In this document: positions 10,490-26,212 of the stretch, one piece after another
Layout: each line of letters opens with the position of its first letter
Position numbering within the stretch: the first letter of the stretch is position 1
From: a virus
DNA: 26,212 nt
Reading direction: 5' to 3' (one strand)
IMG/VR virus record: IMGVR_UViG_3300017727_000132
Coordinates: 1 to 26,212 of that record
Position numbers and translations under genes: made by a program
The notes under the pieces: model-generated
Seen by the model: only the letters and a program-made list of their open reading frames with translations
Databases searched by the model: none
What the model was told of the DNA's origin: nothing

Positions 10490-10518
10490 TTTACATTTCA
10501 ATAGTTTTGTGATATAAT
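10490..10518 (+). promoter_or_regulatory. Sigma70-like promoter of uvsY
   Basis: TTTACA (10490-10495), a 17-bp spacer, then TATAAT (10513-10518) with TGTG just upstream. The predicted transcription start is about 10525, 3 nt before the uvsY ATG. The GGAG at 10519-10522 would be used only on read-through transcripts. GTAAA/TTTAC (482-486/490-494 in the 10 kb block) forms a small inverted repeat at the -35. Confidence 0.8.
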
Positions 10519-10527
10519 GGAGATATT

Positions 10528-10956
10528 ATGGATTTAGAAAAATTACAAGAACTGGCTGATAAAGACTTGTCTATCAATGATTCGGAGTTAGATTTAGAGT
10601 CTTTAAAAACACCACAATTACACAACAAATATATGAAACACTTAACAAAGTTTAAGTTAATGTTGAGTCGTGCCGAATCTGAATATAGAACAATCAAAAG
10701 AGATAAGTGGGAATATTATACTGGTAAGGCAGACGCCTCAGTATATGCACAAAAACCATTTGATTTAAAAATATTAAAAACTGATATAGACAAATACTTA
10801 GAAGCTGACGAAGATTTACAGAGAATAAAACAAAAGGTAGATTATTTAAATGTTGTTGTTGATTTCTTAGATAGAACAATTAGACAAATAACAAATAGAA
10901 CATTTACTATAAAAAATTCTATAGATTGGAAGAAGTTTACTAGTGGCGCAATTTAA
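10528..10956 (+). CDS. uvsY: Recombination mediator UvsY
   Basis: Loads the UvsX recombinase onto gp32-covered single-stranded DNA, in recombination-dependent replication and repair. It has 142 aa (T4 UvsY 137). The helical, Lys/Asp-rich sequence with KYMKHLTKFKLMLSRAESEYRTIKRDKWEYYTGKADASVYAQKPFDLKILKTDIDKYL at about 36-92 and a DFLDRTIRQITNRTFTIKNSIDWKKF end is typical of the family. The W-x-Y-Y-x-G-K-A segment (about 67-75) is highly conserved. It starts at the 5' end of the uvsY-oxygenase-uvsW unit and its TAA overlaps the next ATG by 1 nt. Confidence 0.92.
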   Translation: MDLEKLQELADKDLSINDSELDLESLKTPQLHNKYMKHLTKFKLMLSRAESEYRTIKRDKWEYYTGKADASVYAQKPFDLKILKTDIDKYLEADEDLQRIKQKVDYLNVVVDFLDRTIRQITNRTFTIKNSIDWKKFTSGAI

Positions 10957-11534
10957 TGAATATTTTAAAAGAAGATTTATTTCCTACTAGAATTTTTTTA
11001 GTTGATAATCTTTTAAAAGAAGAATATATCAACACAATGAGAGAAGATATACTCTCTACACCTAAAAAACAATCTAGGCCTAAATTACAATACGAACTAA
11101 AATATAAAGAGTTGGTTGATAGAGTTTATAATATTGCACAATCTTATTTTATTGATATGATGTGGAATGTAGAAGACTATCAAATTACAGATATGTGGTC
11201 TAACGTATTAAAGCCTGGAGAAAGTCATTCATTACATACACATTCAAATAATGTTATAAGTGGTGTTTACTATATACAAGCAAAGAATTCAGAAATACGA
11301 TTTTTTGATCCTAGACCACAAACAAGAATTTTAATTCCTAGAGCTTGGCAAGATAATAAAGAAAATTCAACAACATGGTTTTATCCAGCAACTACAAATA
11401 GATTGTTAATGTTTCCTTCTTGGCTAGAACACGATGTACCTACTACACAAGAGGAAAGAATATCTATTTCCTGGAATATTATGTTTAAAGGTAAGATTGG
11501 TTCTTCCGAAGAATATCAATCAGCAGAGTTTTAA
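10956..11534 (+). CDS. 2OG-Fe(II) oxygenase superfamily protein (no. 2)
   Basis: A 192-aa protein of the phage-rich putative 2OG-Fe(II) oxygenase family with a TIGR02466/PF13759-like layout. It has H94-x-H96 (SLHTHSNN), then SGVYYIQ (102-108), RFFDPRPQ (115-122), LLMFPSWLEH with distal His159, and Arg168 in RISISWN. The C-terminus (SWNIMFKGKIG) is nearly the same as that of the protein at 21298-21927 (AWNIMPKGKIG), suggesting the two are recent paralogs. It sits between uvsY and uvsW with 1-nt and 0-nt junctions, so it is co-translated with recombination genes. The substrate is unknown. Confidence 0.82.
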   Translation: MNILKEDLFPTRIFLVDNLLKEEYINTMREDILSTPKKQSRPKLQYELKYKELVDRVYNIAQSYFIDMMWNVEDYQITDMWSNVLKPGESHSLHTHSNNVISGVYYIQAKNSEIRFFDPRPQTRILIPRAWQDNKENSTTWFYPATTNRLLMFPSWLEHDVPTTQEERISISWNIMFKGKIGSSEEYQSAEF

Positions 11535-13016
11535 ATGACCGCAACAAAGTATATTATCATAGACAAAAAAGATGAAGTACATCTAAAGATTGAAGCTGAC
11601 GCCGATATTAGGAGAGATATATCAGAGTACTTTACTTTTGAGGTACCTGGTTTTAAGTTTATGCCTCAGTTTCGAAACAGAGTATGGGACGGAAAGATAA
11701 GGTTATTTTCGTATGCAAACGGTCAAATATATGCAGGATTATATCCTTATATCTTAAATTGGTGTAAAGAAAACAATGTCCAAGTAGTAGATGGTACGAA
11801 GATTAAAGATGTGGTTGTTGATGATAAAGTGGTTGACCGATTTTTAAAAGCACTTAAAATACCAAAGATTGAGATAAGAGATTATCAAAAAGAAGCATTT
11901 GTACATTCTATTAAAAAGAGTAGATGTTTGTTGTTATCACCCACAGCTTCAGGTAAATCATTAATAGTTTACTTAATGTTGATATACAATCTAGTAAGAT
12001 TAAGAGATAAAAAACAAGATAAGATATTAATTATTGTACCTACAACATCATTAGTAGAACAATTATTTAAAGATTTCAAAGATTATGGTTACAATAGTGA
12101 ACGTAACGTACATAGAATATATCAAGGCCATGACAAAGACACAAAGAAAAGAGTTATTATATCTACATGGCAATCAATATACAATCAACCTAAAAAATGG
12201 TTTAGTCAATTCGGTATGGTAATTGGTGATGAGGCACACTTATTTAAAGCAGTTTCATTAACTAAGATATTAACTAAATTAGAACAATGTAAATATAGAG
12301 TTGGTTTAACAGGTACTTTAGATGGTACAAAGACACACAAATTAGTTTTAGAAGGACTGTTTGGTACAGTCAATAAGGTAATATCTACAAGTGAATTACA
12401 AGAAAATAAACAACTAGCCGATTTAAAAATATTTTGTTTGGTATTACAACATGATAAAAACGCTAGACATTTTTTAAAAGATAAGACATATCAGGAAGAA
12501 ATGGATTACTTGGTCGCTAATGAAAAGAGAAATAAATTTATTAGAAACTTAGCTGTAAACAGTATTGGAAATACACTATGTTTGTTTCAGTATGTAGAAA
12601 AACACGGAACAATTTTAAAACAAATGATAGAAGACAAAGCAGAAAACAAAAAAGTTTTCTTTGTCTATGGAGGAGTTGAAACAGATGAACGAGAAAAAAT
12701 CAGAGAAATCACCGAAAAATCGGATAACGCCATTATTGTGGCTTCTTACGGCACTTTCTCAACCGGAATTAATATACGGAATTTGCATAACATTATTTTT
12801 GCTAGTCCTTCTAAATCTCGCATAAGAAATTTACAAAGTATTGGTAGAGGTTTAAGATTAAAAGATAATAAATCAGAAGCTACATTATACGATATATCAG
12901 ATGATTTAACTTATAATGAAAAAGAGAACTACACTTTGGCACACTTTAGAGAAAGAATAAATATATATGGACAAGAAGAGTTTAATTACGAAATACATAA
13001 CGTAGAGTTAAAGTAA
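11535..13016 (+). CDS. uvsW: DNA/RNA helicase UvsW
   Basis: Superfamily 2 helicase that rewinds or branch-migrates recombination intermediates and unwinds origin R-loops, switching phage replication to the recombination-dependent mode. It has 493 aa (T4 about 503). The N-terminal domain has FRNRVWDGKIRLF (46-58). Motifs are Q-like RDYQ (115-118), Walker A PTASGKS (136-142), DEAH (232-235), motif III GLTGTLDG (258-265) and motif VI QSIGRGLR (434-441). It directly follows the oxygenase gene. A patch around 12680-12830 uses CGA/CGG/CGC and other codons rare elsewhere in the window, which hints at a recombinant segment. Confidence 0.94.
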   Translation: MTATKYIIIDKKDEVHLKIEADADIRRDISEYFTFEVPGFKFMPQFRNRVWDGKIRLFSYANGQIYAGLYPYILNWCKENNVQVVDGTKIKDVVVDDKVVDRFLKALKIPKIEIRDYQKEAFVHSIKKSRCLLLSPTASGKSLIVYLMLIYNLVRLRDKKQDKILIIVPTTSLVEQLFKDFKDYGYNSERNVHRIYQGHDKDTKKRVIISTWQSIYNQPKKWFSQFGMVIGDEAHLFKAVSLTKILTKLEQCKYRVGLTGTLDGTKTHKLVLEGLFGTVNKVISTSELQENKQLADLKIFCLVLQHDKNARHFLKDKTYQEEMDYLVANEKRNKFIRNLAVNSIGNTLCLFQYVEKHGTILKQMIEDKAENKKVFFVYGGVETDEREKIREITEKSDNAIIVASYGTFSTGINIRNLHNIIFASPSKSRIRNLQSIGRGLRLKDNKSEATLYDISDDLTYNEKENYTLAHFRERINIYGQEEFNYEIHNVELK

Positions 13017-13017
13017 T

Positions 13018-13431
13018 ATGGAACAAGATATAAAAATAGTCAAACTGGTAAACGGCGATGATATTGTTTGCAATATGCCAAACGAACAATTGCCAACTAA
13101 TTCACCAATGTTAAGAGTAGAGCGACCATTTCAAATAAAGTATGTACCTCAAATGACACCAGGTGGTGTTAAAGATTATGTAGCTTTAATGAAGTGGGCG
13201 GCTTACACACATGATATTGTTATTACTATCCCTAAAGATAAAATTATAACAATAACAAATGCTACAGATGAGATGAGTAAAAGTTATGCTAATTTTTCCA
13301 AAGATTATGATAAACTAGAAAAGAAAATAGACGACAATGTGTTCCGAAATGATGAATTGTCCGATGAAGAGAATGAGAAATTAAATGAAATATTTAATAG
13401 TTTTAGAGATGTTAAGAAGGTACTTAATTAG
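13018..13431 (+). CDS. Sm-like phage protein of unknown function
   Basis: A 137-aa product. The N-terminal part (IKIVKLVNGDDIVCNM, 5-20; then PFQIKYVPQ..., VALMKWAAYTHDIVITIPKDKIITITNATDEM) has the strand order of Sm-like small beta-barrels found in T4-like phages next to uvsW. The C-terminal 40 residues are acidic and helical (ELSDEENEKLNEIFNSF). RNA binding is possible for the fold, but no binding residue set is demonstrable. It starts 1 nt after the uvsW stop, so it belongs to that operon, and its stop lies inside a 6-bp inverted repeat. Confidence 0.6.
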   Translation: MEQDIKIVKLVNGDDIVCNMPNEQLPTNSPMLRVERPFQIKYVPQMTPGGVKDYVALMKWAAYTHDIVITIPKDKIITITNATDEMSKSYANFSKDYDKLEKKIDDNVFRNDELSDEENEKLNEIFNSFRDVKKVLN

Positions 13432-13464
13432 TACCTAATAGCCCTTATCACAGGCGACACGCCT
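13419..13464 (+). other. Two hairpins at the end of the uvsW operon
   Basis: Inverted repeat GGTACT/AGTACC (13419-13435) spans the stop codon, and AGGCG-ACA-CGCCT lies at 13452-13464. No T-run follows either, so they are not classical terminators; they may be RNA-end stabilisers or factor-dependent termination sites. Confidence 0.4.
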
Positions 13465-13486
13465 ATTATAACTAAAATTATTCAAA

Positions 13487-13512
13487 TGTCAATGCTCCAA
13501 TGAACATTGACA
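13487..13512 (+). promoter_or_regulatory. Inverted repeat overlapping the gp55 -35 element
   Basis: TGTCAATG (13487-13494) and CATTGACA (13505-13512) form a perfect 8-bp inverted repeat with a 10-nt spacer. The right arm contains the whole TTGACA -35 hexamer. This is a candidate operator, or a hairpin ending transcripts from the left. Confidence 0.5.
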
Positions 13513-13535
13513 AAAACAAAAAATAATGATATAGT
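13507..13535 (+). promoter_or_regulatory. Sigma70-like promoter of gp55
   Basis: TTGACA (13507-13512), 17-bp spacer, TATAGT (13530-13535). The predicted start is about 13542, 3 nt before the gp55 ATG, leaving no room for a ribosome-binding site. The hexamers together match 11 of 12 consensus positions. Confidence 0.82.
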
Positions 13536-13544
13536 GAGTATATT

Positions 13545-14096
13545 ATGAGATCAAAAAAAGAAAAAGAACATTACGTTAATAATAAAGAGTTTTTGCAGGC
13601 CATGATTGGTTACAAAAACGCTGTTGAAAAGGCTGCAAAAGCAAAACAGGAGAAACCACCTGTAACAGATTATATTGGTAGTTGTTTCTTAAAAATCGCA
13701 AACCACTTATCGTATAGACCTAACTTTATAAACTATACGTTTAAAGACGACATGATTTCCGACGGAATTGAAAACTGTTTGCAATATTTGGATAACTTTA
13801 ACCCAGATAAATCAAACAACCCCTTTGCCTACTTTACACAAATTATCTACTATGCGTTTATTCGTAGAATACAGAAAGAAAAAAAACAAACTACAATTAA
13901 GAATAAATTAATAATAGACGCCAACTATGATGATATGACATTACAACCAGGTGAAGATAGGGAGTTTAGAAATCAATTCTCAGAATTTTTAAGACAAAAT
14001 ACTACTATAGATGATTCTGTGGTGGCTAAAGAAAAAGTCAAAAAAGAAAGAAAAAAGAAAACAGTTAAGAAATCGACACTAGAATATTTTTTATAA
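13545..14096 (+). CDS. 55: Late-transcription sigma factor gp55
   Basis: Phage sigma factor that directs host RNA polymerase to TATAAATA late promoters such as those upstream in this window. It has 183 aa (T4 185). Residues about 40-115 (TDYIGSCFLKIANHLSYRPNFINYTFKDDMISDGIENCLQYLDNFNP... and NPFAYFTQIIYYAFIRRIQKEKK) are the sigma region-2-like core. The hydrophobic C-terminus STLEYFL matches the sliding-clamp-binding end of gp55, and a Lys/Arg-rich stretch precedes it. The start fits the family length, though the promoter is so close that a leaderless message is predicted. The stop overlaps the halogenase ATG. Confidence 0.93.
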   Translation: MRSKKEKEHYVNNKEFLQAMIGYKNAVEKAAKAKQEKPPVTDYIGSCFLKIANHLSYRPNFINYTFKDDMISDGIENCLQYLDNFNPDKSNNPFAYFTQIIYYAFIRRIQKEKKQTTIKNKLIIDANYDDMTLQPGEDREFRNQFSEFLRQNTTIDDSVVAKEKVKKERKKKTVKKSTLEYFL

Positions 14097-15661
14097 TGAA
14101 AACTGATAGAATAATTATTGTTGGTGGTGGATCAGCAGGCTGGATGACGGCTGCTACTTTATCACATCAATTTCCTAAAAAAGAAATTACACTAATCGAA
14201 TCACCAAATGCGCCTATCATTGGTGTTGGTGAAAGTACGATAGGTAAAATTAATAATTGGCTATCTTTATTACAAATCAAAGATACTGATTTTATGAAAC
14301 ATACAGACGCTTCATATAAATTAAGTATTAGATTTGAAGACTTTTATAAAAAGGGAGCTGGTGCATTTCACTATCCTTTTCAACAACCAAAAACAGATAA
14401 TACAGCAAACGGATTAAATGATTGGGTATTAAGAAAAGACGCCTTAAACGGAGAACTAGATGTTTCTGATTATGCAGACTCGTATTGTTCAATTATGGGT
14501 TTAATAAACAATAATACTTTTGCAAAAGATGATATACCAGACTTCTTATTTAATAGAGATTGTGCTTATCATTTTGACGCTATCAAGTTTGGTCAATACT
14601 TAAAAAATCATAGATGTAAAAATGTCAAACATATAGTAGAAGATATTACAGAGGTAGAAACAGATGAAAGAGGCATTAAGAATTTAAATGGTAAGTATTA
14701 TGCTGATCTGTTTATTGATTGTACAGGATTTAAAAGATTACTAATACAAGAAAACTTAAAAGAAGAGTTTACTAGTTATGAAGATATACTACCAAACAAT
14801 AGAGCATTAGCAACACATATAGAGTACGGTTATGGTGAAGTAGAAAAAGATTTAAAACCATATACTAATTGTACAGCTATAGAAAACGGCTGGGTTTGGA
14901 ATATACCATTGTATAGTAGAATGGGTGCTGGTTATGTTTATTCAGATAAGTATGTTACCAGAGAACAGGCAGAAATAGAATTTAAAGAACATTTAAAATC
15001 ACAAGGATTAAATCATACTAATTTAAAATTTAAAGATATAAAATTTACACCAGGTACTATCAACAGACCATTTAGTAAAAATGTTGTTGCAATAGGATTG
15101 TCGTCTGGTTTTATCGAGCCTTTAGAATCAAATAGTTTATTTACAACACATGATAATCTATTACATTTAATAAGAATTATAAACAGAGGTGAAGTAAACC
15201 AGTTTGATAGAGATACTTATAACTTAACAGTAAAAGATAAGTTTAGAGCATTTGCTGAATTTGTTGCAATGCATTATGCCTTATCACATAGAAGTGATAC
15301 TCAATATTGGGTTGACGTACAAAATAGAAAGTATGAAAAGAACATAGATACAAATGAGTTTGTTAGATTTACAGATGGTTTTACTCATGCTATTACCGAT
15401 AGAATGATACAAAGACAATATCCAAAACATGAAGGATTTAATTTCATTGCTACAGGTATGAGATACTTTGCTACAGATTTATCTACAGAAATTAAATTTG
15501 ATTTAAGACCAGAATACGACATAGAACTAACAAAAGAACACATTGTAACAGCTACAGAATATCTAGTAAAACAAAAGAATGAGTGGAATGAATTAGGTAA
15601 AAAACAAAAATCATTGTACAAATACTTGAAAGAAAACATATATGAAAATAGCACTTCTTAA
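14096..15661 (+). CDS. Flavin-dependent (tryptophan-type) halogenase
   Basis: FADH2-dependent halogenase, a 521-aa full-length enzyme. Motifs: GxGxxG-type FAD site GGGSAGW (10-16), GVGEST (43-48), catalytic-lysine motif SYKLSIRF with Lys75 (equivalent to Lys79 of PrnA), W-x-W-x-I-P at GWVWNIP (265-271), and G-x-SSGFIEPLES (334-345) with Glu344 in the place of the PrnA active-site Glu. All key residues are intact, so it is predicted to be active: it would generate HOX, held as a lysine adduct, and halogenate an unidentified substrate. Related genes occur in marine cyanomyoviruses, and a cyanophage member (VirX1) has been reported to iodinate. It is coupled to gp55 and overlaps gp47 by 20 nt. 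Confidence 0.9.
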   Translation: MKTDRIIIVGGGSAGWMTAATLSHQFPKKEITLIESPNAPIIGVGESTIGKINNWLSLLQIKDTDFMKHTDASYKLSIRFEDFYKKGAGAFHYPFQQPKTDNTANGLNDWVLRKDALNGELDVSDYADSYCSIMGLINNNTFAKDDIPDFLFNRDCAYHFDAIKFGQYLKNHRCKNVKHIVEDITEVETDERGIKNLNGKYYADLFIDCTGFKRLLIQENLKEEFTSYEDILPNNRALATHIEYGYGEVEKDLKPYTNCTAIENGWVWNIPLYSRMGAGYVYSDKYVTREQAEIEFKEHLKSQGLNHTNLKFKDIKFTPGTINRPFSKNVVAIGLSSGFIEPLESNSLFTTHDNLLHLIRIINRGEVNQFDRDTYNLTVKDKFRAFAEFVAMHYALSHRSDTQYWVDVQNRKYEKNIDTNEFVRFTDGFTHAITDRMIQRQYPKHEGFNFIATGMRYFATDLSTEIKFDLRPEYDIELTKEHIVTATEYLVKQKNEWNELGKKQKSLYKYLKENIYENSTS

Positions 15662-16688
15662 CGATACACACTTTGGTTGTAGAAACGATAGTCCAGCTTT
15701 TATGGAGTATCAAAATAGATTTTACAATGAATTGTTTTTTCCTTATTTAAAAGAACATAACATAAACACACTTGTTCATTTAGGTGATGTAGTTGATAGA
15801 AGAAAGTTTATTAACCATAATACAGCACATAACTTTAAGAAAGTATTTTGGGACAAGATAGATGAAATGAAACTAGATACACATATTATCATTGGTAACC
15901 ACGATACTTACTATAAGAATACCAATGAAATAAATGCAATGTCTAATTTAAGTATTAGTAAAGAGGCTAAAGTATATACAAGACCAACTGAGGTTACATT
16001 TGACAATTTAGATATATTGTTTTTACCTTGGATTTGTGATGATAATTATGATGATAGTATTTACAAGATAGATAATTCAACATCATTAATAGCTATGGGT
16101 CATTTAGAAGTTAAAGGTTTTGAAATGCACAAAGGAGTTTATAACGACCACGGTTTAGATAAAAGTCAATTTACTAAATTTGAAAAAGTTATATCTGGCC
16201 ACTTTCATAAAAAATCAGATGATGGTAGAGTGTATTACCTAGGCACACAATACGAAATAACATGGTCAGATTATGGTTGTCCTAAAGGCTTTCATATATT
16301 TGATACAGAAACAAGAGAATTGGAACGTATATCTAATCCTATAAAAATTCATAAGAAGATAATATACAATGATAAAGAAAACAATTACTTAGATTTTGAT
16401 TATACTGATTATGAAAGGTGTTTTGTTAAAGTATTCATATCACAAAAAACTGATGAAAATATGTACAATACATTTATAGAAAAGTTTTATAACAATACTA
16501 ACGTACATGAATTACAAATAATAGATGATCCTACAGATTTAAATACAACAGTAAGTGATAATATATTAGAACAAGGAGAAGATACTATGACATTTTTAGA
16601 AAATTACATAGATCAAATAGAAACAGACGTTGATAAACAAAAGTTAAAAGCTTTTGCAAAAGACCTTTATACAGAGGCAGGTGAATAA
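15642..16688 (+). CDS. 47: Recombination endonuclease subunit gp47 (SbcD/Mre11-like)
   Basis: Metallophosphoesterase nuclease subunit of the gp46/gp47 complex that resects DNA ends for recombination and host DNA breakdown. It has 348 aa (T4 339). Motifs: NDTHFG with Asp8/His10, GDVVDRR with Asp49, GNHD at 85-88, MGHLEV with His154, and GHFH at 186-189, the complete Mre11-type metal site. The C-terminal part contacts gp46. It starts inside the halogenase gene and is followed, with a 1-nt overlap, by an oxygenase gene rather than directly by gp46. Confidence 0.94.
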   Translation: MKIALLNDTHFGCRNDSPAFMEYQNRFYNELFFPYLKEHNINTLVHLGDVVDRRKFINHNTAHNFKKVFWDKIDEMKLDTHIIIGNHDTYYKNTNEINAMSNLSISKEAKVYTRPTEVTFDNLDILFLPWICDDNYDDSIYKIDNSTSLIAMGHLEVKGFEMHKGVYNDHGLDKSQFTKFEKVISGHFHKKSDDGRVYYLGTQYEITWSDYGCPKGFHIFDTETRELERISNPIKIHKKIIYNDKENNYLDFDYTDYERCFVKVFISQKTDENMYNTFIEKFYNNTNVHELQIIDDPTDLNTTVSDNILEQGEDTMTFLENYIDQIETDVDKQKLKAFAKDLYTEAGE

Positions 16689-17338
16689 TGGACGAAGAGT
16701 ACAAATTAGAATACAAATATTATCATTGGGGACCTTTTGTTATGCAAACAAAGATAACAGAGGAACTTAGATTATGGATGTTAGATGAGGCTAGAAAACA
16801 ACAAGAAAACTTTAATAAAGAATTAGCTGGTCATTTAAAATATCAGTTTAAATATACAGATGAAGTTGCTGGCCAGTTTTATGAAAAAACACAACCAATA
16901 TTTAAAATGTATAGACAAGGTCATGTTGACTTTCATGGATCAAAAGGTAAAGAAGTTAGATATGTTGGCAGGTCATTATGGGTAAACTTTATGAAACCTG
17001 GTGATTGGAATCCACCACATATACATGGTGGTGATTTTTCTTTTGTTGTTTACTTAGATGTACCCGATGAATTAAGAAAAGAGTTTAAAGAGTTTGAAGG
17101 AACAAGTGCTGGTCCAGGTAGTATTACATTTGATTATGGTACAGAATCACGTCCTAAATGGGCTACAAATGCACATCATCATTATCCAGAGTCAGGAGAT
17201 ATGATAATATTTCCAGCATTAACAGCTCATTCAGTAGCACCTTTTAAAACTGATTGTACAAGAATATCTGTTAGTGGTAATTTAACTTACGAACTAAATG
17301 ATAACAATAATTTAGACAGGATAGATGATTACTTTTAA
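16688..17338 (+). CDS. 2OG-Fe(II) oxygenase superfamily protein (no. 3)
   Basis: A 216-aa protein. The iron site motif appears as H111-x-H113 in PPHIHGGDFSFVVYLD, with distal His181 (FPALTAHSVAPF) and Arg192 (CTRISVSGNL), the layout of the TIGR02466/PF13759-like family. The central insertion contains TFDYGTESR and a His cluster (AHHHYPESGD, about 162-171). It lies between gp47 and gp46 with overlaps on both sides (1 nt and 14 nt). The substrate is unknown. It belongs to the same superfamily as the proteins at 10956 and 19040 but is clearly divergent from them. Confidence 0.8.
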   Translation: MDEEYKLEYKYYHWGPFVMQTKITEELRLWMLDEARKQQENFNKELAGHLKYQFKYTDEVAGQFYEKTQPIFKMYRQGHVDFHGSKGKEVRYVGRSLWVNFMKPGDWNPPHIHGGDFSFVVYLDVPDELRKEFKEFEGTSAGPGSITFDYGTESRPKWATNAHHHYPESGDMIIFPALTAHSVAPFKTDCTRISVSGNLTYELNDNNNLDRIDDYF

Positions 17339-19040
17339 GAAAATAAGATATAAAAACTTTTTATCTACAGGTAATACACCAATAGAAGTAGATTTAAATA
17401 AGTCAGATACAACTTTAATAGTAGGTAAAAATGGTAGTGGTAAATCTACACTACTTGACGCCTTGTGTTACGTCTTATTTAACAAACCATTTCGTATGAT
17501 TAAGAAAGAACAAATGGTTAACACTATTAACAATGGTGATTGTATTGTAGAAGTTGATTTTGATGTTGGTACAAAACAATATAAAGTTATTAGAACAATA
17601 AAACCAAACAGCTTTGAGATATATTGCAATGGTAAATTACTAAACCAAGACGCAAGTACTATTGACTATCAAAAATACCTAGAAAAAAATATAATGAAAT
17701 TAAACTATCGTTCTTTTTTACAGGTTGTTTTATTAGGTTCTTCATCATATGAGCCATTTATGAAGATGAAACCAAGATATAGACGAGAAGTTGTTGAAGA
17801 GATACTTGATATCAGAGTTTTTGGCTTAATGGACTTGATTTTACGTTCTCAACAGAGTGATTTACAAAAAAAGTTAACGGAGGTACGCCACCAATGTGAA
17901 TTGATTAAGACGAAGTATCAAACTGAAGCAAAACATCTTAAATCACTGGAAGACCAAGGGACAGACTTCCAGACCTATAAAAAGAAAACGCTAGATAAAA
18001 ACGATCAGGATACGAAGAATTATCAGAAAAAGATACAAAAGTTAAATGAAGAGATAGCCGTGTCAAAAGAGAAGATAAAAGACAGAATGGACCATGACAT
18101 CAAGCTAAATAAACTTCAAAAATTAGAAACTCAGATAGAAACTAATCTAAACTCACATAGAAAAACACTCCAGTTTTTTAAAGACAATGATACTTGTCCT
18201 ACTTGTACACAAACAATAGATGTAAATTTAAAAACTAGTAAATGTGACCACGAACAAAAACATATTACTAAATTAGAATCTGGTATAAATCAACTACTAG
18301 ATGAAATATCTAAGACAGAAATTAAAGTCACCGAGTTTTCTTCTATATCAAATAAAATAAATGATATGAATGTTGAGATTGCTAAAATAACCTCATCATT
18401 AGAGAATATTAAAAGATATAGTGATGATATACACGAAGAGTTACAAATATCTGAAAAAGGTAATATAGACATAGAAAGTATAAAGAAAGACTTAGAGAAT
18501 ATGGCTATTGATCTAAAAGAAGCTGAAGAAAACCTATCTAAAGTACAAGAAGAAAAAGGTTATGTAGATATACTAAGAGAGATATTAAACGACAAAGGTG
18601 CTAAGGCACAGATTATTAAGAAGTATTTACCAATAATGAATACATTAATTAATCAACATCTACAATCTATGGATTTTTATGTTAACTTTAACTTAGATGA
18701 AGAGTTTAACGAAACAATCAAAAGTAGATTTAGAGATAACTTTAATTATAATAACTTTAGTGAAGGTGAGAAGATGAGAATAGACCTTGCCTTACTATTT
18801 ACTTGGCGACAAATAGCTAAAATGAAAAACAGTACAAATACAAATCTATTAATACTAGATGAAATATTTGATAGTAGTTTAGATGGTCAAGGTATGGATG
18901 ATTTCTTTAAAATAATAAAACAATTTGAAAAAGAGAACATCTTTATAATATCACATAAGGGAGATATATTGTTTGATAAGTTTACAAACATAGTTAAGTT
19001 TGAGAAGTATAAAAACTTTACTAGATTAGAGAGGGCTTAA
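17325..19040 (+). CDS. 46: Recombination endonuclease subunit gp46 (SbcC/Rad50-like)
   Basis: ABC-type ATPase partner of gp47. It has 571 aa (T4 560). Walker A GKNGSGKS at 34-41, long coiled coils (about 180-280 and 310-415) flanking the zinc hook CPTC (Cys291, Cys294), ABC signature FSEGEK (478-483), and Walker B LLILDE (508-513) followed by a SLDGQG D-loop. All catalytic parts are present. The segment around 17870-18130 (first coiled coil) uses rarer codons (ACG, CGC, CTG, GCC) than its surroundings, which may mark a recombined patch. It overlaps the upstream oxygenase gene and the next ATG. Confidence 0.94.
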   Translation: MITFKKIRYKNFLSTGNTPIEVDLNKSDTTLIVGKNGSGKSTLLDALCYVLFNKPFRMIKKEQMVNTINNGDCIVEVDFDVGTKQYKVIRTIKPNSFEIYCNGKLLNQDASTIDYQKYLEKNIMKLNYRSFLQVVLLGSSSYEPFMKMKPRYRREVVEEILDIRVFGLMDLILRSQQSDLQKKLTEVRHQCELIKTKYQTEAKHLKSLEDQGTDFQTYKKKTLDKNDQDTKNYQKKIQKLNEEIAVSKEKIKDRMDHDIKLNKLQKLETQIETNLNSHRKTLQFFKDNDTCPTCTQTIDVNLKTSKCDHEQKHITKLESGINQLLDEISKTEIKVTEFSSISNKINDMNVEIAKITSSLENIKRYSDDIHEELQISEKGNIDIESIKKDLENMAIDLKEAEENLSKVQEEKGYVDILREILNDKGAKAQIIKKYLPIMNTLINQHLQSMDFYVNFNLDEEFNETIKSRFRDNFNYNNFSEGEKMRIDLALLFTWRQIAKMKNSTNTNLLILDEIFDSSLDGQGMDDFFKIIKQFEKENIFIISHKGDILFDKFTNIVKFEKYKNFTRLERA

Positions 19041-19624
19041 TGAATTTATTTTCAACATATTTACATCATGTAAATAACAAAGAACTATCAGATAGTTTAA
19101 AAGGTCATTGTGACCAGATATTAAGTGAAGTACAACCACATAAAGATTACCCGATAGGTAGAACAAGTTACTTTGATAATACACTAAGAAAAAAGTACCA
19201 AGAAACATTTTTACCATTTACAGATTTTGTATATGAACAAACATTAGAATATTTAAAAGTATTAGATGTAAAACAAAATGAAATAAACATTAGTCTGGTA
19301 GATTGGTGGGTATCAGATATGCAAAAACATGGTTCACATGACTCACACACGCATACGCCAGGTTCAGTAATAAGTGGTAATTTTTATATTGATATTGATC
19401 CAGGTAGTTCACAAATAAATTTTTATGACGCTGACGCCGATCATAACATATTAGCTGATTTACCCTTTAATAGTTATAATTGTTACAATAGTTCAATTTG
19501 GAATGTACCACCTAAAGAAGGATTACTTTTAATGTGGCCTGCTAATCTAAGACATGGTGTAGAAACTAATATGACAAATAAAAGAATAGCTATCTCTTTT
19601 AATGTAAACGTAACCAAAAAATGA
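19040..19624 (+). CDS. 2OG-Fe(II) oxygenase superfamily protein (no. 4)
   Basis: A 194-aa protein of the same phage family: H103-x-H105 in SHTHTPGSVISGNFYID, INFYD strand (126-130), WPANLRHGVE with His172, and Arg182 in KRIAISFNVNV, ten residues on. Between the strands is an insertion naming no further motif (ADADHNILADLPF). The start codon overlaps the gp46 stop (TAATG) and the stop overlaps the next start (ATGA). No substrate can be deduced. In host genomes such proteins are mostly uncharacterised. Confidence 0.82.
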   Translation: MNLFSTYLHHVNNKELSDSLKGHCDQILSEVQPHKDYPIGRTSYFDNTLRKKYQETFLPFTDFVYEQTLEYLKVLDVKQNEINISLVDWWVSDMQKHGSHDSHTHTPGSVISGNFYIDIDPGSSQINFYDADADHNILADLPFNSYNCYNSSIWNVPPKEGLLLMWPANLRHGVETNMTNKRIAISFNVNVTKK

Positions 19625-20250
19625 AATACCCAATAACAATAGTTGATAACTTTTATGGCAATCCAGATAAAGTTAGAGGGTTGGCATTACAACAAGAGTT
19701 TAAACAAACTACAAAAGGTGGTTTTCCAGGTAAAAGAACAAAACCTTTACATGAAATAAATACAGAGTTGTTTCATTTCTTTAATCATAAGTTGTTTTCA
19801 ATATACTATAATGTAGAGGAAGAAAATTTAAGATGGAAAGTAGATACTTGTTTTGACAAAGCTTATCCTTTTGACAAACACCATAGTGAAGGCTGGATAC
19901 ATAACGACAGTAACGAAAGTAAACTAGTTGGTGTATTATATCTATCACCTCATTGTGATGTAGGTACTTCTTTCTATGATAAACCAGAAGGCTATGATGA
20001 GTTTGCATCCGATATAGAATTAAGAAGACAATTTTATATAGATAGAAAAGAAAAAGATTTATACTTAGAAAGACAGGCATTACATAATTCTAATTTTACA
20101 AAAACATTAGAAGTAAAAGGTAAGTATAATAGATTAGTTGTATATGATTCAAAGTATTACCATGGTTTTGACAACATAAGTATGGTTGATGAAAGATTAA
20201 TACAAGTATTTCATGTAGAAGAGTTATCTACAGAAAGAACACCGATATGA
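19621..20250 (+). CDS. 2OG-like oxygenase-fold protein, DUF6445-type (no. 5)
   Basis: A 209-aa protein. N-terminal KYPITIVDNFYGNPDKVRGLALQQEF (2-27) followed by GGFPGKRT is typical of DUF6445-like proteins. A possible facial triad is visible: H94-x-D96 in GWIHNDSN, distal His181 (YYHGFDN) and Arg192 (ERLIQVFHVEE). Thus the jelly-roll oxygenase chemistry may be intact although the family is not characterised. The middle (about 120-155) is a charged helical insertion. It is coupled by ATGA overlaps to both neighbours. Confidence 0.7.
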   Translation: MKYPITIVDNFYGNPDKVRGLALQQEFKQTTKGGFPGKRTKPLHEINTELFHFFNHKLFSIYYNVEEENLRWKVDTCFDKAYPFDKHHSEGWIHNDSNESKLVGVLYLSPHCDVGTSFYDKPEGYDEFASDIELRRQFYIDRKEKDLYLERQALHNSNFTKTLEVKGKYNRLVVYDSKYYHGFDNISMVDERLIQVFHVEELSTERTPI

Positions 20251-20753
20251 TAGAAGATTACAAAGTAATAGACGATTTTTTACCAAAGGCAGCCTTTGAA
20301 GACCTAAAAAGAGTACATTTAGATACTAACTTTCCTTGGTTTTATATACCTTTTGTAGCTGAGGAAGAAGACAACGATAACTTTTATTTTATACATCGTT
20401 TCTTTTATAACAACAAAGTGAAATCTGATTATTTCAAGGAGTGTTGCCTTCCTTTATTAAATGGTATAGGATACTATAATATAAAAGATATTATAAGAAT
20501 TAAATCTAACTTGTTTACTAAATCACCAAGTCAAATTGAACATGGTGTACACATTGATTACGATGTAGATCATATAACAGGTGTATATTCAGTAAATACA
20601 AATAATGGCTATACACAATTTGATGATGGCACAAAGATTGAGTCAATAGAAAACAGAATGTTATTATTTCATGGACAAAAACCACATCAAAGTGTATCAC
20701 AAACAGATACTAAACAAAGAATAAATATCAACATAAATTACATAGGGCAATAA
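20247..20753 (+). CDS. 2OG-Fe(II) oxygenase, small cyanophage type (no. 6)
   Basis: A 168-aa compact jelly-roll protein: H102-x-D104 (HGVHIDYD), the characteristic VNTNNGYTQFDDGTKIESIENRMLLF block (116-141), distal His147 (KPHQSV) and Arg158 (KQRINININ). This is the short prolyl-hydroxylase-like type common in marine myoviruses. The complete HxD...H...R set predicts activity. It overlaps the previous gene by 4 nt and abuts the deformylase gene (TAA-ATG). No substrate can be read from the sequence. Confidence 0.82.
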   Translation: MIEDYKVIDDFLPKAAFEDLKRVHLDTNFPWFYIPFVAEEEDNDNFYFIHRFFYNNKVKSDYFKECCLPLLNGIGYYNIKDIIRIKSNLFTKSPSQIEHGVHIDYDVDHITGVYSVNTNNGYTQFDDGTKIESIENRMLLFHGQKPHQSVSQTDTKQRINININYIGQ

Positions 20754-21311
20754 ATGAAAGAACTAAAATTAATACCACCATCTGATCCAAGAGTACAACA
20801 CGCAATAGCACCATTTACAAATGAGATGTTAAAAGATGAGGGTTTTGAAACTAGAAAAGAATTGGCTGACTCGATGTATGATTGTATGTCAAAGTTTGGT
20901 GGTATAGGTTTAACTTGTAATCAAGTTGGTCTTCCGTTTAATATGTTTGTATTAGGTAACCACCCTCAAATAGAAAATGGTTTGAAAATGACTTGTTTTA
21001 ATCCTATGATTGTTTCAGCTAGTGATGAAACCATTATGATGAAAGAGGGTTGTTTAACATTTCCTTTTGTCTTTTTAAATATTACAAGACCAAGAAAAGT
21101 TGTAGTAAAGTATGAAGACGAGAATGGTGATTTACAAGAAGGCCATTTAGATGGTATTATGAGTAGAATATTCCAACATGAAACAGATCACATTTTAGGA
21201 AGAACATTTACTGAACACGTTTCTAAGATGAAGTTAGATAGAGCCTATAAAAAGGCAGAGAAAGATATGACTAGATATAAAAAGGCTGTGAAAGAACATG
21301 GAAGAAATTAG
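20754..21311 (+). CDS. def: Peptide deformylase
   Basis: Removes the N-formyl group from nascent proteins. It has 185 aa with all three motifs: GGIGLTCNQVG (49-59; the usual GxGLAAxQ with Thr-Cys in place of Ala-Ala), EGCLTFP (98-104; metal ligand Cys100) and QHETDH (141-146; ligands His142 and His146, catalytic Glu143). A C-terminal lysine-rich helix extends past residue 160. Cyanophages carry related genes, usually explained by D1 turnover; here no photosystem gene is visible, so the reason must be more general. It lies in the oxygenase cluster and overlaps the next gene by 14 nt. Confidence 0.92.
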   Translation: MKELKLIPPSDPRVQHAIAPFTNEMLKDEGFETRKELADSMYDCMSKFGGIGLTCNQVGLPFNMFVLGNHPQIENGLKMTCFNPMIVSASDETIMMKEGCLTFPFVFLNITRPRKVVVKYEDENGDLQEGHLDGIMSRIFQHETDHILGRTFTEHVSKMKLDRAYKKAEKDMTRYKKAVKEHGRN

Positions 21312-21927
21312 AGGCAATAAAAAAATACATTATTTCTGGCCTCAGGTTTTACAAGAGGAAAATATTGGTGTAAAACAAGAACTATTAGATTATGTAAAAA
21401 CATTAGAGTATATAAGAGTAAAACAAGACAATGGTAGTGTTAGCAAAAACCATGATATATTAGATGATGAAATATTTAAAGAACTAAAAGAAACAATTAT
21501 AGACCGTACAAAGTTTTATTTACAAGACCTCTATTCACAAAATCCTTTTGAATTAGAAATTATTGCCAGCTGGGTTATGAAACATAAAAAAGGTGATTTT
21601 GCACAGGCACATTATCATCACAATAGTTATATGAGTGGTGTTTATTACTTACAATCAGACGAAAAATCAGGTAAAATAAATTTTATCAAAAATGACCAAG
21701 AAGATAAATTAAGTCCTACAATAAAACCAGATGTTTATCGTTGGAATGATATTAACGGTGCAATACACTGGTCAAAGGTTACACCTGGCAATTTACTTAT
21801 ATTTCCTTCAAGGCTTGTACATGACACAGATACAAACGAATCAGATATGAATAGATATTGTTTAGCATGGAATATCATGCCTAAGGGTAAAATAGGCGAA
21901 AAAGATCATAAATGGCATATAAAATAA
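21298..21927 (+). CDS. 2OG-Fe(II) oxygenase superfamily protein (no. 7)
   Basis: A 209-aa protein: H105-x-H107 in AQAHYHHNSYMSGVYYLQ, KINFIKND strand (126-133), LLIFPSRLVH with His175 and Arg186. The C-terminus AWNIMPKGKIG closely matches that of the protein at 10956-11534, which also shares SGVYY(I/L)Q, so these two are the closest pair among the seven. It is the last gene of the gp55 operon; a new promoter follows at 21935. No substrate can be deduced. Confidence 0.82.
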   Translation: MEEIRGNKKIHYFWPQVLQEENIGVKQELLDYVKTLEYIRVKQDNGSVSKNHDILDDEIFKELKETIIDRTKFYLQDLYSQNPFELEIIASWVMKHKKGDFAQAHYHHNSYMSGVYYLQSDEKSGKINFIKNDQEDKLSPTIKPDVYRWNDINGAIHWSKVTPGNLLIFPSRLVHDTDTNESDMNRYCLAWNIMPKGKIGEKDHKWHIK

Positions 21928-21934
21928 CACACCA

Positions 21935-21963
21935 TTGACTTTTTAAATCACTTGTGATATATT
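21935..21963 (+). promoter_or_regulatory. Sigma70-like promoter of the DruA-like gene
   Basis: TTGACT (21935-21940), 17-bp spacer, TATATT (21958-21963) with TGTGA upstream resembling an extended -10. The predicted start is at or next to the A of ATG 21970, so the transcript would be leaderless. No Shine-Dalgarno lies between promoter and gene. Confidence 0.78.
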
Positions 21964-21969
21964 AACACT

Positions 21970-23268
21970 ATGGGATATTCGTGGAATAAAGATATGACAA
22001 TTGATGACCAATGGCAGAGTTGGCAAGACAATACAGATTTAACTAAAATACCAGACATAGATACAGATACACTAAAAGAAACAATCATTAAAGATTTGAC
22101 CTTTGTATCTGCTATGACAGTACAAGAATATACGCTTTATCAAAAATTTCAGGAAGTAAAGTTTAGATACCCTACAGCAGAAACAAATAGTTTCTTTGAT
22201 GATAAGCCTGCTATGGTAAGACCAGATCAGGCCACAGTTATACAAGAAGTAAAGAATAACTTTTGGTTACCTGAAGACCCCGAAGAATATCAAAACTTAC
22301 AACCAGAATTAATTTGGACAGATGGTGCTGAGGTACAATCACATACAAATGCCAAAGGCAGTGAAATCTGGAATGCATTAAGAACATTTTTATCTACCAT
22401 GAAAAACAATAGTAATATTGGTAGAAATCTAAACTTTTTAGTTAGAGATAAAGTAACACAAAAATACTTAGGCGTTATTTGTATGAGTAGTGATTTCTTA
22501 GACCTTACACCAAGGGACGAATATATTGGTTGGGAAAGAGAAGCTAAAACTCAGAGAATGATTAATCATACTTGCATTGGTAGTACAATTGTACCTATAC
22601 AACCACTTGGTTATAATCTAGTAGGTGGTAAATTACTTGCGTTATTATGTTTATCAGATACAGTAGAGAAAACATGGGAACACCAATACAAAGATAAATT
22701 AGTTGGTGTTACAACTACAAGTTTATACGGTAAAACTAAAGTAATACCATTATCACAATACGATAGATTAAAGAACTGGAAGAAAATGGGTTGGACAGCT
22801 GGTTCAGTTTCATACGAACCAGAAAAAACAACTAATACTATGATACAACAATGGTTGATGAAAAATCATACATACAAATACTTTGAATGGTACGTTGCAA
22901 AGAAACCTAGTGGCCAACCACATAAGAGAGATCATAGAAATAGAAGCAGAGCATTTACATATAGTAAACTAGGTGTTGATAAGAAGCTACAAAAGTCTGA
23001 ACACGCTAGAGGTATATACTTTGGTGAACTATATGAGAATACTAATCAATTTTTAAGAGAAGAAATTAAAGAAGATAAACTAATAAGAAAATTTGACAAC
23101 TCAGTAGAAGCGTTAACTGATTTGTGGAAGAATAAGTATGCTAGAAAAAGACTAGCCAGTTTAAAGAAACAAGATAGAGTATCAAAAGAAACACACTTTT
23201 ACGATGATATTATATATTTAAATTGGGAAGAGTGTAAGAATAAGTACTTACAGGACGTTGGAAGATAG
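21970..23268 (+). CDS. DruA/DUF4338-like protein
   Basis: A 432-aa protein. The central region (about 155-280) follows the DUF4338 pattern: KYLGVICMSSDFLDLTPRD, IGW at 186-188, an N-x-x-x-x-x-x-x-P-I/V segment (199-212), LxGGKLLALLCL, W236-x-x-x-Y240, LVGVTTTSLYGK (244-255), and S262-x-YDRLKNWKKMGWTAG. DUF4338 is the family of DruA from the Druantia anti-phage system, whose biochemistry is not settled; phages also carry members. The N-terminal 150 and C-terminal 150 residues are extra, the latter very basic, suggesting nucleic acid contact. It is a single-gene unit with its own promoter. The match is from pattern memory, hence moderate confidence. Confidence 0.6.
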   Translation: MGYSWNKDMTIDDQWQSWQDNTDLTKIPDIDTDTLKETIIKDLTFVSAMTVQEYTLYQKFQEVKFRYPTAETNSFFDDKPAMVRPDQATVIQEVKNNFWLPEDPEEYQNLQPELIWTDGAEVQSHTNAKGSEIWNALRTFLSTMKNNSNIGRNLNFLVRDKVTQKYLGVICMSSDFLDLTPRDEYIGWEREAKTQRMINHTCIGSTIVPIQPLGYNLVGGKLLALLCLSDTVEKTWEHQYKDKLVGVTTTSLYGKTKVIPLSQYDRLKNWKKMGWTAGSVSYEPEKTTNTMIQQWLMKNHTYKYFEWYVAKKPSGQPHKRDHRNRSRAFTYSKLGVDKKLQKSEHARGIYFGELYENTNQFLREEIKEDKLIRKFDNSVEALTDLWKNKYARKRLASLKKQDRVSKETHFYDDIIYLNWEECKNKYLQDVGR

Positions 23269-23324
23269 TCGATTCGCTACAAAAAATGACTAAAAAGAAC
23301 AAAATAAGAACAAATATAGTCAAA

Positions 23325-23386
23325 AAACCCTTGTTTTCCAACGAAAAATAAACGCTTGACATTTACGATCTTTTCCTTTAGGATGG
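23325..23386 (+). repeat. 62-nt promoter repeat, copy 1 (upstream of cobT-like gene)
   Basis: Aligned without gaps to 25665-25726, about 48 of 62 positions are identical. Identical blocks are AAACCCTT, CAACGAAAAATAAA (23339-23352, an A-rich UP-element-like stretch) and TTTCCTTTAGGATGG (23372-23386), which contains the -10. The rest of the 23269-23395 gap shows only A-rich sequence. Confidence 0.8.
23356..23384 (+). promoter_or_regulatory. Sigma70-like promoter of the cobT-like gene
   Basis: TTGACA (23356-23361), 17-bp spacer, TAGGAT (23379-23384). The predicted start is about 23391, 5 nt before ATG 23396 and 23 nt before ATG 23414. TATATT at 23390-23395 is an alternative -10 but has no -35 at a proper distance. 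Confidence 0.7.
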
Positions 23387-23413
23387 ATCTATATTATGAA
23401 AAAGGACACACTT

Positions 23414-25654
23414 ATGAATTTAGATGTAAAATCTAATCTTGCAAAATTACTTGCTACAGAAAATATTACAATTCAACATGATAATGTTAAGACAGCTTCT
23501 TTCGATGTAAAGAATAGAGTACTTACATTACCTATATTCAAACAACAATCTGGTGACGTTACTGATATGTTAATAGCACATGAATGTGCTCACGCATTAT
23601 GGACTCCTTATAAAGAATGGGAAGGCATTACTGATCCTGAATTAAGATCATATGTTAACGTATTAGAAGATTGTAGAATTGACTTATTAATTCAAGCAAA
23701 ATATCCAGGTACTGTTAGAAATTACTTGAATGGTTTTGATATACTAGAAAAAAAAGATTTCTTTGGTCTATTTGGTAAAGATATTAATAAAGACCTTATG
23801 ATTATTGATAAGATCAATCTAAGATCAAAATCATTACAAAGATTACCATTTGGTTGGTCTGAACAAGATAAACAATGGTTAGCTAAAGTTGACACAATGA
23901 AAACTTTTGATGATGTACTTACTCTTGCAAAAGAAATATTAGATTGGCAAAAACAACAAGTTGAAGAAATGAGAAAGTTACCTGATTTTGACAATCATGT
24001 AATTGCAAAAAATTATGAACTATCTGATGATGAAGACGAAGACGAGTCAGATACAGAATCACAAGAAGACGGTAACTCTGAGGGTAATAGTGAAGAACAA
24101 AATAACTTCTCTAATGAAGAAGCTGATGATGAAAAAGATAGTAATCAATCAGGTGCCTCTGAAAAATCAGATGAGAAAAAAGAAGAAGCTAAGTCTGAGG
24201 GTGTTGCTCAACAATATGGTTCAGGTTCAGGCGGTGACGCAACTCAAAGAAAATTATTAAAAGCAGTTACAGATGATTCATATACTCAAAAATCTGAAGA
24301 GTTATTAGATGATAAGTCCAAAGGATTTGCTTATGGTAATTTACCAGAACCAAACTTAAAAGATATTACATCTTACAAAGAATTTCTAAAGACTTTTGCA
24401 ACTCATAAATCAAAACAAAATTATGGTAACTATGATGTATGGTTAAGAGATACCTTTAAAAGATTTAAAAAAGATAACAAGAAAACTGTTAACTATCTAG
24501 TTAAAGAGTTTGAAATGAAAAAGTCTGCTCAAGCATATAAAAGAGCTAGTCAGGATAAGACAGGTATTATTGATCCTTTAAAATTACCTTCTTACAAATA
24601 TTCAGATGATATCTTTAAAAGATTAACTATCATTCCTGATGGTAAAAACCATGGTATGATGATGTTACTAGATTGGTCTGGTTCAATGTCTGATACTCTA
24701 ATGCATACAGTTGAACAATTGTTAAACTTAGTTGAGTTTGTAAGAAAGGTTAATATACCTTTTGAAGTTTACTTCTTTACTAGTGAGAGAAAATATTGGG
24801 CGTCTAATGAAACTACTGAAACAAAATCATTTAATCACAAAGACGGTGATTGGAGATTTGAAGACTTTAATTTAGTAAACTGTTTTAGCCACAGAATGAC
24901 TAAAAAAGAATTTGAATTAGCTGGTATGTATATGTACCACATGGCATTTTATTACAACGCTAGTTATGTTTATCATAAACATATGGATAGTGATATGTGG
25001 ATGGCAAGAAATGAAAGTTACGGTATACCTGGTGAGTTTTACTTAGGTAATACTCCGTTAAACGAAGCACTTGTATTTTGTAATAAGTTAATACCAATGT
25101 TTAAAGAGAAATATGGTATTGAGAAAATGTCATTTATTACTTTAACAGATGGTGGTGCCAATTCATTCAGACATACTATCGTAGATAAAAACGACCAGTA
25201 TGGTACAAAACAAGATTACGATAAAACAGCTATCATACAATCTGGTAAAAAGAAAATGGTACTAGAAGGTTATGGTGACTTAACTAACAAACTGTTAAGA
25301 TTTCTAAGAACTTCATACGATCTTAACAATATTGGTTTCTATATTCTTAAAAGAGTTAGAAAATGGGATATTGAAAAGCATATGCCTGGAAAAGATTATA
25401 TGCAACGTGAACAACAGTATCAAAAAGCAAGAAAACAATTTACTAAAGACAAGGCATTGGCAGTAAATAAAGAAGGATACAATAAGTACTTCTTACTTGA
25501 TGGTAAAAAACTGAAAGTAGAGAATTTTGATCTATCTCAGGCTACTGTTAAGAAAGGAACTTCTAGTGAATTAAAGCGAATCTTCGCTGGTTCTATGAAG
25601 AATCGACTAGTTTCCAGAGTGATTTTAAGCAAGTTTATCGAGGAGGTTGCATAA
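23414..25654 (+). CDS. cobT: CobT-like protein: zincin-like N-terminus plus VWA domain
   Basis: A 746-aa protein from ATG 23414, chosen because AAGGA at 23402-23406 lies 7 nt upstream; in-frame ATG 23396 is almost at the mRNA 5' end. The N-terminal domain has HECAH (56-60) in MLIAHECAHALWTP and NVLEDCRID (82-90), an HExxH...ExxR arrangement suggesting a zinc site. A long acidic Asp/Glu/Ser linker spans about 204-262. The C-terminal VWA domain has MIDAS DWSGS (420-424), T547 in GNTPLNEAL and D579 in TLTDGG. This is the architecture of CobT/VWA partners of MoxR ATPases. Its partner ATPase follows with a matching promoter. Literal cobaltochelatase activity is doubtful without CobN. Confidence 0.8.
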   Translation: MNLDVKSNLAKLLATENITIQHDNVKTASFDVKNRVLTLPIFKQQSGDVTDMLIAHECAHALWTPYKEWEGITDPELRSYVNVLEDCRIDLLIQAKYPGTVRNYLNGFDILEKKDFFGLFGKDINKDLMIIDKINLRSKSLQRLPFGWSEQDKQWLAKVDTMKTFDDVLTLAKEILDWQKQQVEEMRKLPDFDNHVIAKNYELSDDEDEDESDTESQEDGNSEGNSEEQNNFSNEEADDEKDSNQSGASEKSDEKKEEAKSEGVAQQYGSGSGGDATQRKLLKAVTDDSYTQKSEELLDDKSKGFAYGNLPEPNLKDITSYKEFLKTFATHKSKQNYGNYDVWLRDTFKRFKKDNKKTVNYLVKEFEMKKSAQAYKRASQDKTGIIDPLKLPSYKYSDDIFKRLTIIPDGKNHGMMMLLDWSGSMSDTLMHTVEQLLNLVEFVRKVNIPFEVYFFTSERKYWASNETTETKSFNHKDGDWRFEDFNLVNCFSHRMTKKEFELAGMYMYHMAFYYNASYVYHKHMDSDMWMARNESYGIPGEFYLGNTPLNEALVFCNKLIPMFKEKYGIEKMSFITLTDGGANSFRHTIVDKNDQYGTKQDYDKTAIIQSGKKKMVLEGYGDLTNKLLRFLRTSYDLNNIGFYILKRVRKWDIEKHMPGKDYMQREQQYQKARKQFTKDKALAVNKEGYNKYFLLDGKKLKVENFDLSQATVKKGTSSELKRIFAGSMKNRLVSRVILSKFIEEVA

Positions 25655-25675
25655 TGAGAGGCGGAAACCCTTACC

Positions 25676-25701
25676 TGGCAACGAAAAATAAAGGGTTGCC
25701 A
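25676..25701 (+). other. Inverted repeat overlapping the cobS-like -35
   Basis: TGGCAAC and GTTGCCA, a perfect 7-bp stem with a 12-nt A-rich loop. The right arm includes the TTGCCA -35 hexamer, as at the gp55 promoter. It may be an operator or a hairpin at the end of the cobT-like mRNA; no T-run follows. Confidence 0.45.
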
Positions 25702-25724
25702 AATGCGAATCTTTCCTTTAGGAT
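25696..25724 (+). promoter_or_regulatory. Sigma70-like promoter of the cobS-like gene
   Basis: TTGCCA (25696-25701), 17-bp spacer, TAGGAT (25719-25724). The predicted start is about 25731, 4 nt before ATG 25735 and 28 nt before ATG 25759. It aligns base for base with the cobT-like promoter. Confidence 0.68.
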
Positions 25725-25758
25725 GGTATTATAAATGAAAAAGAAAGGACATTACACT

Positions 25759-26212
25759 ATGTTAAACACTAAACAACAAGAATTCGTTGATTATGCTGTT
25801 AGTAAGTATAACACAAACGAATTGACGGTTTCTGAACTAAAAGAAGCCAACAAACATTTTGGTTGCAAGTATGCACCTCAATGGTTGATTAAAAATGCCG
25901 ATTATAAAATCGGTAAATCATTATTCAAATTACCTGTAGAAGCTTCAGATGTTTCTACTGTAAAAACTGAATCAAAATCTGGTACTGCCGAAAAACTTAT
26001 GACTAAGGCACCAGAGGTTGAAACTAAAAGCGAAGCTGCTTATATTGTTTCATCACTTACTGGTAACATCGTACCTAAAAAAGATCCAGTTTTCGTATCT
26101 TTTGGTAATTATCCTGATGTAAAATCAATTATCAAATCTAATATGTTCTACCCTATCTTTATTACTGGTTTATCTGGTAATGGTAAGACTATGGGTGTTA
26201 CTCAAGCTTGTG
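25759..26212 (+). CDS. cobS: CobS/MoxR-like AAA+ ATPase, 3' end outside window
   Basis: Partial gene, first 151 codons. The chosen ATG has AAAGGA at 25744-25749, 9 nt upstream; in-frame ATG 25735 would add eight residues. An N-terminal region of about 100 residues resembling a small DNA- or protein-binding module (VSELKEANKHFGCKYAPQWL) precedes the AAA+ core. PIFITGLSGNGKTMGVTQAC has Walker A GLSGNGKT at 137-144. Marine T4-like phages carry this gene, annotated cobS after the cobaltochelatase subunit. MoxR-type ATPases pair with VWA proteins, and the upstream neighbour is exactly that. It is truncated by the window edge, not by mutation. Confidence 0.85.
   Translation, partial: MLNTKQQEFVDYAVSKYNTNELTVSELKEANKHFGCKYAPQWLIKNADYKIGKSLFKLPVEASDVSTVKTESKSGTAEKLMTKAPEVETKSEAAYIVSSLTGNIVPKKDPVFVSFGNYPDVKSIIKSNMFYPIFITGLSGNGKTMGVTQAC

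Follow-up and report, generated by a model that had tools for sequence, protein, structure and literature searches.

Promoters placed at the start codon predict leaderless mRNAs for uvsY, gp55 and a DruA-like gene in T4-like viruses related to SAR11 phages

Introduction

Leaderless genes can, according to Zheng et al. (2011, PMC3160421), be recognised by a TANNNT signal about 10–12 bp upstream of the start codon. Such TA-led genes resemble the starts described here in having a -10-like element about 10–12 bp before the start and no Shine-Dalgarno (SD) motif, but they form a genome-wide class of cellular genes, whereas the present starts belong to a T4-like phage lineage, have a full TTGACA-N17 -35 element, lie alongside an SD-led class and switch class within gene families. 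In Caulobacter, which shares the bacterial class Alphaproteobacteria with SAR11, 375 leaderless mRNAs are translated about as well as led mRNAs (PMC4117421); those were measured in a cellular host, whereas the phage mRNAs considered here are predicted. Leaders in Lactococcus cremoris were measured as <5 nt or about 40 nt, with none reported between 4 and 14 nt (PMC10986495); this distribution is bimodal too, but the organism is Gram-positive and its transcription start sites were measured, while the leaders below are calculated from promoter position. Among phages, lambda cI has an mRNA that starts at the AUG and is called lmRNA in PMC9031893, a single gene as against several families here, and phage transcripts are said to be often leaderless in a paper on AR9 (PMC5312081). 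For pelagimyophages, prediction of middle and late promoters was reported to be unsuccessful (PMC7029224), and no report of leaderless transcription was found in the literature searched, from which subscription journals were mostly absent. Leaderless mRNA is already known; its organised use within a pelagimyophage lineage appears to be undescribed in the literature searched.

Material and methods

A 26,212-base IMG/VR virus record was analysed over its whole length (the window). Gene identities in the window were assigned by Pfam and PHROGs searches. IMG/VR relatives of gp55, uvsY, DruA and cobT were collected and their upstream regions aligned on the start codon, the cobT set being added after the alignment; relatives were anchored on ATG, and the comparison covered ATG starts. 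The gap was counted as the bases from the end of the -10 element to the first ATG. A position weight matrix (PWM) was built from the gp55, druA and uvsY promoters of relatives; its own columns favour those families, and a consensus-only scan and Mosig genes outside the training families were used as guards against this bias. For the scans, start codons were assigned by a simple caller that takes the longest ORF. Predicted leaders were computed with the transcript starting at the 7th base after the -10, cobT and cobS being excluded.

Results

The nearest phage-record match of the gp55 and UvsY proteins of the window was Pelagibacter phage Mosig EXVC030M (76% and 78% identity), followed by HTVC008M and Melnitz; judged from sequence, the lineage is one of T4-like viruses related to phages of the marine bacterium SAR11. 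It carries a gene of the DruA family (Pfam DruA; DUF4338 in Mosig). The PHROG names of the cobT-like and cobS-like genes are 'peptidase' and 'porphyrin biosynthesis'. Between gp55 and gp47 the window carries a tryptophan-halogenase-like gene (14096–15661, phrog_2928), none being annotated there in Mosig or HTVC008M. An Rfam search of the window gave no match.

Table 1. Promoters, genes and the uvsY GGAG motif in the window.
Feature	Position	Strand	Details
uvsY promoter, TTTACA-N17-TATAAT	-35 10490–10495, -10 10513–10518	+	gap 9 to ATG 10528
GGAG	10519–10522	+	between uvsY -10 and predicted start; only on read-through RNA
uvsY	10528–10956	+	UvsY family, E=6.5e-38; predicted mRNA 5' end A10525, leader about 3 nt (AUU-AUG)
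Divergent promoter, TTGACA-N16-TATAAT, perfect consensus	13465–13492	-	upstream of gp55; start region 13450–13464
gp55 promoter, TTGACA-N17-TATAGT	-35 13507–13512, -10 13530–13535	+	gap 9 to ATG 13545
gp55, late sigma factor	13545–14096	+	phrog_234, E=6.5e-63; predicted 5' end A13542, leader about 3 nt without SD
DruA-like promoter, TTGACT-N17-TATATT	-35 21935–21940, -10 21958–21963	+	gap 6 to ATG 21970
DruA-like gene	21970–23268	+	Pfam DruA, E=4.8e-24; predicted 5' end is the A of the ATG, 0-nt leader
cobT-like promoter, TTGACA-N17-TAGGAT	-35 23356–23361, -10 23379–23384	+	gap 11 to ATG 23396
cobT-like gene	23396–25654	+	phrog_459; first ATG 23396 (leader about 5 nt), likelier start ATG 23414
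cobS-like promoter, TTGCCA-N17-TAGGAT	-35 25696–25701, -10 25719–25724	+	gap 10 to ATG 25735
cobS-like gene	25735–26211, cut by window end	+	first ATG 25735, likely start ATG 25759

An earlier note on this DNA had described five promoters with 17-bp spacers whose -10 elements end shortly before an ATG, and all five hexamer pairs, spacers and gaps were found (Table 1). The ATG was the start codon of uvsY, gp55 and druA, and the promoters of these three genes carried an extended -10 (TGA ahead of the -10); when the window was scanned with the PWM, the uvsY promoter scored highest (29.3). The cobT and cobS promoters (23341–23384 and 25681–25724) share, by eye, a longer similar stretch, in part ACGAAAAATAAA ... 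CTTTCCTTTAGGATGG. Promoter-like strings were not enriched across the whole window (49 versus 51.5 in shuffles; by another count, 81 versus 77.2), so that hexamers alone prove nothing and the case rests on conservation at fixed places in relatives and on the gap distribution. A promoter matching at least 10 of 12 consensus positions was present upstream of gp55 in 96% of 95 distinct regions (6% of shuffles), upstream of druA in 78% of 58 (4%) and upstream of uvsY in 54% of 74 (4%); at a threshold of at least 9 of 12 the values were 83% of 52 relatives for cobT (16% of shuffles) and 77% of 22 relatives for cobS (18%). Upstream matches of neighbouring genes (gp19–gp23, gp46, gp47, uvsW, the mau-like gene and pdf) were near the shuffle background. 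TTGACA/TATAAT-like hexamers at 16–18 bp spacing, that is, promoters of the sigma70 type, were kept in relatives, and the conservation of hexamers and short gap that the note had proposed to check was seen in many relatives, with gaps over the IMG/VR loci peaking at 6, 7 and 9. Chance consensus matches in AT-rich DNA would fit the counts for the window as a whole, but are contradicted by this conservation and by the gap distribution, and can be given practically no weight.

When the IMG/VR loci (L005–L318) were scanned with the PWM, the gap distribution had a sharp lower edge at 6, with 3 matches at gaps 0–5. On a quarter of the loci, identical for both, column-permuted matrices gave 0 matches at gaps 6–10 versus 118 for the true matrix, and the consensus-only scan likewise peaked at 6–9. 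The latter also returned 29 starts at gap -2, which were read, as a group and not case by case, as ATGs made by TATAAT followed by G under the longest-ORF rule. The 7th base after the -10 was A in 97% of gap-9 promoters. Predicted leaders were sharply bimodal (<0 nt, 2; 0–5 nt, 240; 6–10 nt, 4; 11–30 nt, 62; >30 nt, 18; cobT and cobS excluded), and parsimony on FastTree trees required at least 7 switches between short- and long-gap classes for gp55 and at least 9 for uvsY.

Two other explanations accept the promoters as real and bear on this distribution. Genome compaction alone might pack promoters onto start codons, with the short leader as a by-product; the intergenic spaces before uvsY and druA, 42 bp each, leave just room for a promoter. 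Yet the space before gp55 is 113 bp, more than 30 nt of spare upstream room was present at 79/177 short-gap promoters, and compaction does not predict a nearly empty zone of leaders at 6–10 nt, so compaction is considered unlikely. The promoters might instead serve downstream cistrons, with uvsY, gp55 and druA translated mainly from read-through RNA. These genes do sit in same-strand operons, and an SD that could act only on read-through RNA is retained at uvsY and at some gp55 relatives; free placement, however, would not leave the ATG almost never at gaps 0–5, the same 79 promoters had room to lie further upstream, and starts at gaps 6 and 7 lack an SD behind the -10. Service to downstream cistrons is likewise thought improbable, and start-codon placement of the promoter is the reading retained here.

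In raw counts over starts, SD motifs followed the two leader classes. With the transcript starting at the 7th base, no start at gaps 6–16 had an SD 4-mer after the -10 and wholly inside the transcript, versus 24/25 starts at gaps 18–22. No SD followed the -10 at gap-6 and gap-7 starts, and at 41/94 gap-9 starts the -10 was immediately followed by an SD that precedes the predicted transcript start and would be usable only on read-through RNA. Within the gap-9 class, the 17 bases preceding the ATG included an SD 4-mer in 22/28 gp55 and 22/30 uvsY relatives. In the window, the predicted uvsY, gp55 and druA transcripts contained no SD, the uvsY GGAG preceding the predicted start; the two translation modes that the note had proposed for uvsY are indirectly supported, as a prediction, by the count in uvsY relatives. 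SD-like letters upstream of the predicted start occurred at some other short-gap starts, including AGGA within TAGGAT -10 elements, which could therefore double as SD on read-through RNA. A TAGGAT -10 of this kind was seen in druA relatives (e.g. L164, L166 and L196), and 15/40 short-gap (6–8) druA starts had an SD 4-mer.

The starts of cobT and cobS differed from the others. Each gene has in the window a second in-frame ATG (positions in Table 1) preceded by AAAGGA (23401–23406 for cobT, 25744–25749 for cobS), and the cobT profile phrog_459 aligns from residue 7, which is the second ATG. An in-frame second ATG was present in 15/15 cobS relatives examined, with an SD called in 12, and cobS was rejected as a leaderless gene on these grounds. 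Among short-gap cobT starts in relatives, 23/43 had a nearby second ATG and 20/43 had none. Since the second ATG was found at every cobS examined versus about half of the cobT starts, cobS is, from its sequence, SD-led and the cobT arrangement is mixed across the family; cobT of the window probably starts at ATG 23414 with its SD and is unlikely to be leaderless. A leaderless reading is not supported for cobS, nor probably for cobT of the window. Gaps of cobS promoters in relatives were spread (20 at 10–16, 18 at 17 or more), and given this spread no claim is made for an in-frame constraint on the first ATG of cobS. An annotation artefact of this kind, with true starts lying downstream behind their own SD, might be suspected for the remaining genes as well, but gp55 matches in other phages start at or near residue 1, uvsY tblastn matches in cyanophages start at residue 1, DruA relatives align from residue 1, and only 2/241 short-gap starts other than cobT and cobS had a nearby in-frame ATG with SD, which makes misplaced starts a very improbable account of uvsY, gp55 and druA.

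In Mosig, 19 annotated starts scored at least 7 in the PWM scan, the next score being 3.2. Short gaps were found at uvsY, gp55, druA, a gp33-like late accessory gene, a 2OG oxygenase gene and a gene at 96375; the primase gene had a gap of 10. In HTVC008M the short gaps were mostly 11–13 (leaders of 5–7 nt) and not 6–9. Melnitz had mostly long gaps, and its single short-gap start resembles that of primase by eye. Sigma70-type promoters with similar hexamers were found by the consensus scan in T4, but with gaps of at least 20 and no short class, and in the cyanophage Syn9, with gaps of at least 14 and none at 6–11 (matches at gap -2 aside in both). The short-gap class separated Mosig from T4 and Syn9 combined (Fisher p=5e-5). 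The early arrangement of T4, in which an SD leader lies between promoter and start, was absent from uvsY, gp55 and druA of the window, whose gaps of 9, 9 and 6 sustain the contrast with T4 drawn earlier. No such promoter was found upstream of any called gene of the unrelated SAR11 podophages HTVC010P, HTVC019P and HTVC011P.

Upstream of gp55 a divergent promoter was present on the opposite strand (Table 1), with a dyad AGGCG-TGT-CGCCT across the expected start. Among 100 relatives it matched the consensus at 12/12 positions in 36, 11/12 in 32 and 10/12 in 7 (at least 10 in 16/300 shuffles). Counted from the -10, the TGT started at position 6 or 7 in 77 of 80 distinct sequences, and 34/80 had an inverted repeat of 4 bp or more versus 8% of shuffles. 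A transcript from this divergent promoter would cover the end of the mau-like gene in the antisense direction. Two further strong promoters, at 7860 (-) of Mosig (L319) and 41391 (+) of G055, are followed by similar sequence (ATGCGGATATCGTATAAAAGTA and ATGCGGATGTCGTATAAAAGTAA) with no gene called; a tRNA was considered after the Mosig promoter, and ARAGORN found none in L319 7500–8000.

Discussion

Because predicted leaders are bimodal, the short class has no SD and T4 and Syn9 have no short class, the uvsY, gp55 and druA mRNAs are predicted to be leaderless. We consider it highly probable that the promoters set the start of the polymerase at or near the AUG, giving uvsY, gp55 and DruA-like mRNAs that are leaderless and lack an SD, with a read-through SD mode for uvsY. 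The near-leaderless messages foreseen in the note agree with the conserved hexamers, the gap edge at 6, the prevalent A at the 7th base and the nearly empty 6–10 nt zone. From the promoters, their spacing and conservation, the bimodality and the SD distribution, all of which were observed, we infer the transcript starts, leaderless translation, SD use on read-through RNA and an early or middle kinetic class.

In the proposed mechanism, host sigma70-type promoters have their -10 at a distance that would make the polymerase begin at the first base of the start codon or no more than about 3 bases from it. With leaders of 0–3 nt and no SD, the mRNAs of uvsY, gp55 and the DruA-like gene would be read by ribosomes that initiate in the leaderless manner at a 5'-terminal AUG. 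Beside these promoters, the same phages would use an SD-led class whose leaders measure about 11 nt upward, and homologous genes appear to have switched between the two classes. The gap-9 form would keep at the DNA level an SD after the -10 that is missing from the promoter's own transcript and present on read-through RNA, which may give uvsY a second, SD-led mode.

The note had suggested that leaderless messages could escape or exploit changes to host ribosomes. An alphaproteobacterial host may translate leaderless mRNA anyway, as Caulobacter does (PMC4117421), and this is the simpler reading. A leaderless regulon (gp55, the gp33-like gene, uvsY and others) gated at translation, in which phage bS21 or another alteration of the ribosome would promote leaderless initiation during one phase of infection and SD-led genes would be read during another, is a distinctly unlikely extension; the bS21 ribosomal protein encoded by Mosig and HTVC008M nevertheless makes the question of ribosome changes worth asking. 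For phages abundant in the ocean, the arrangement yields a promoter map that is simple and open to test, predicts SD-free translation of key regulators and would supply naturally occurring cases of genes that have changed between leaderless and SD-led initiation.
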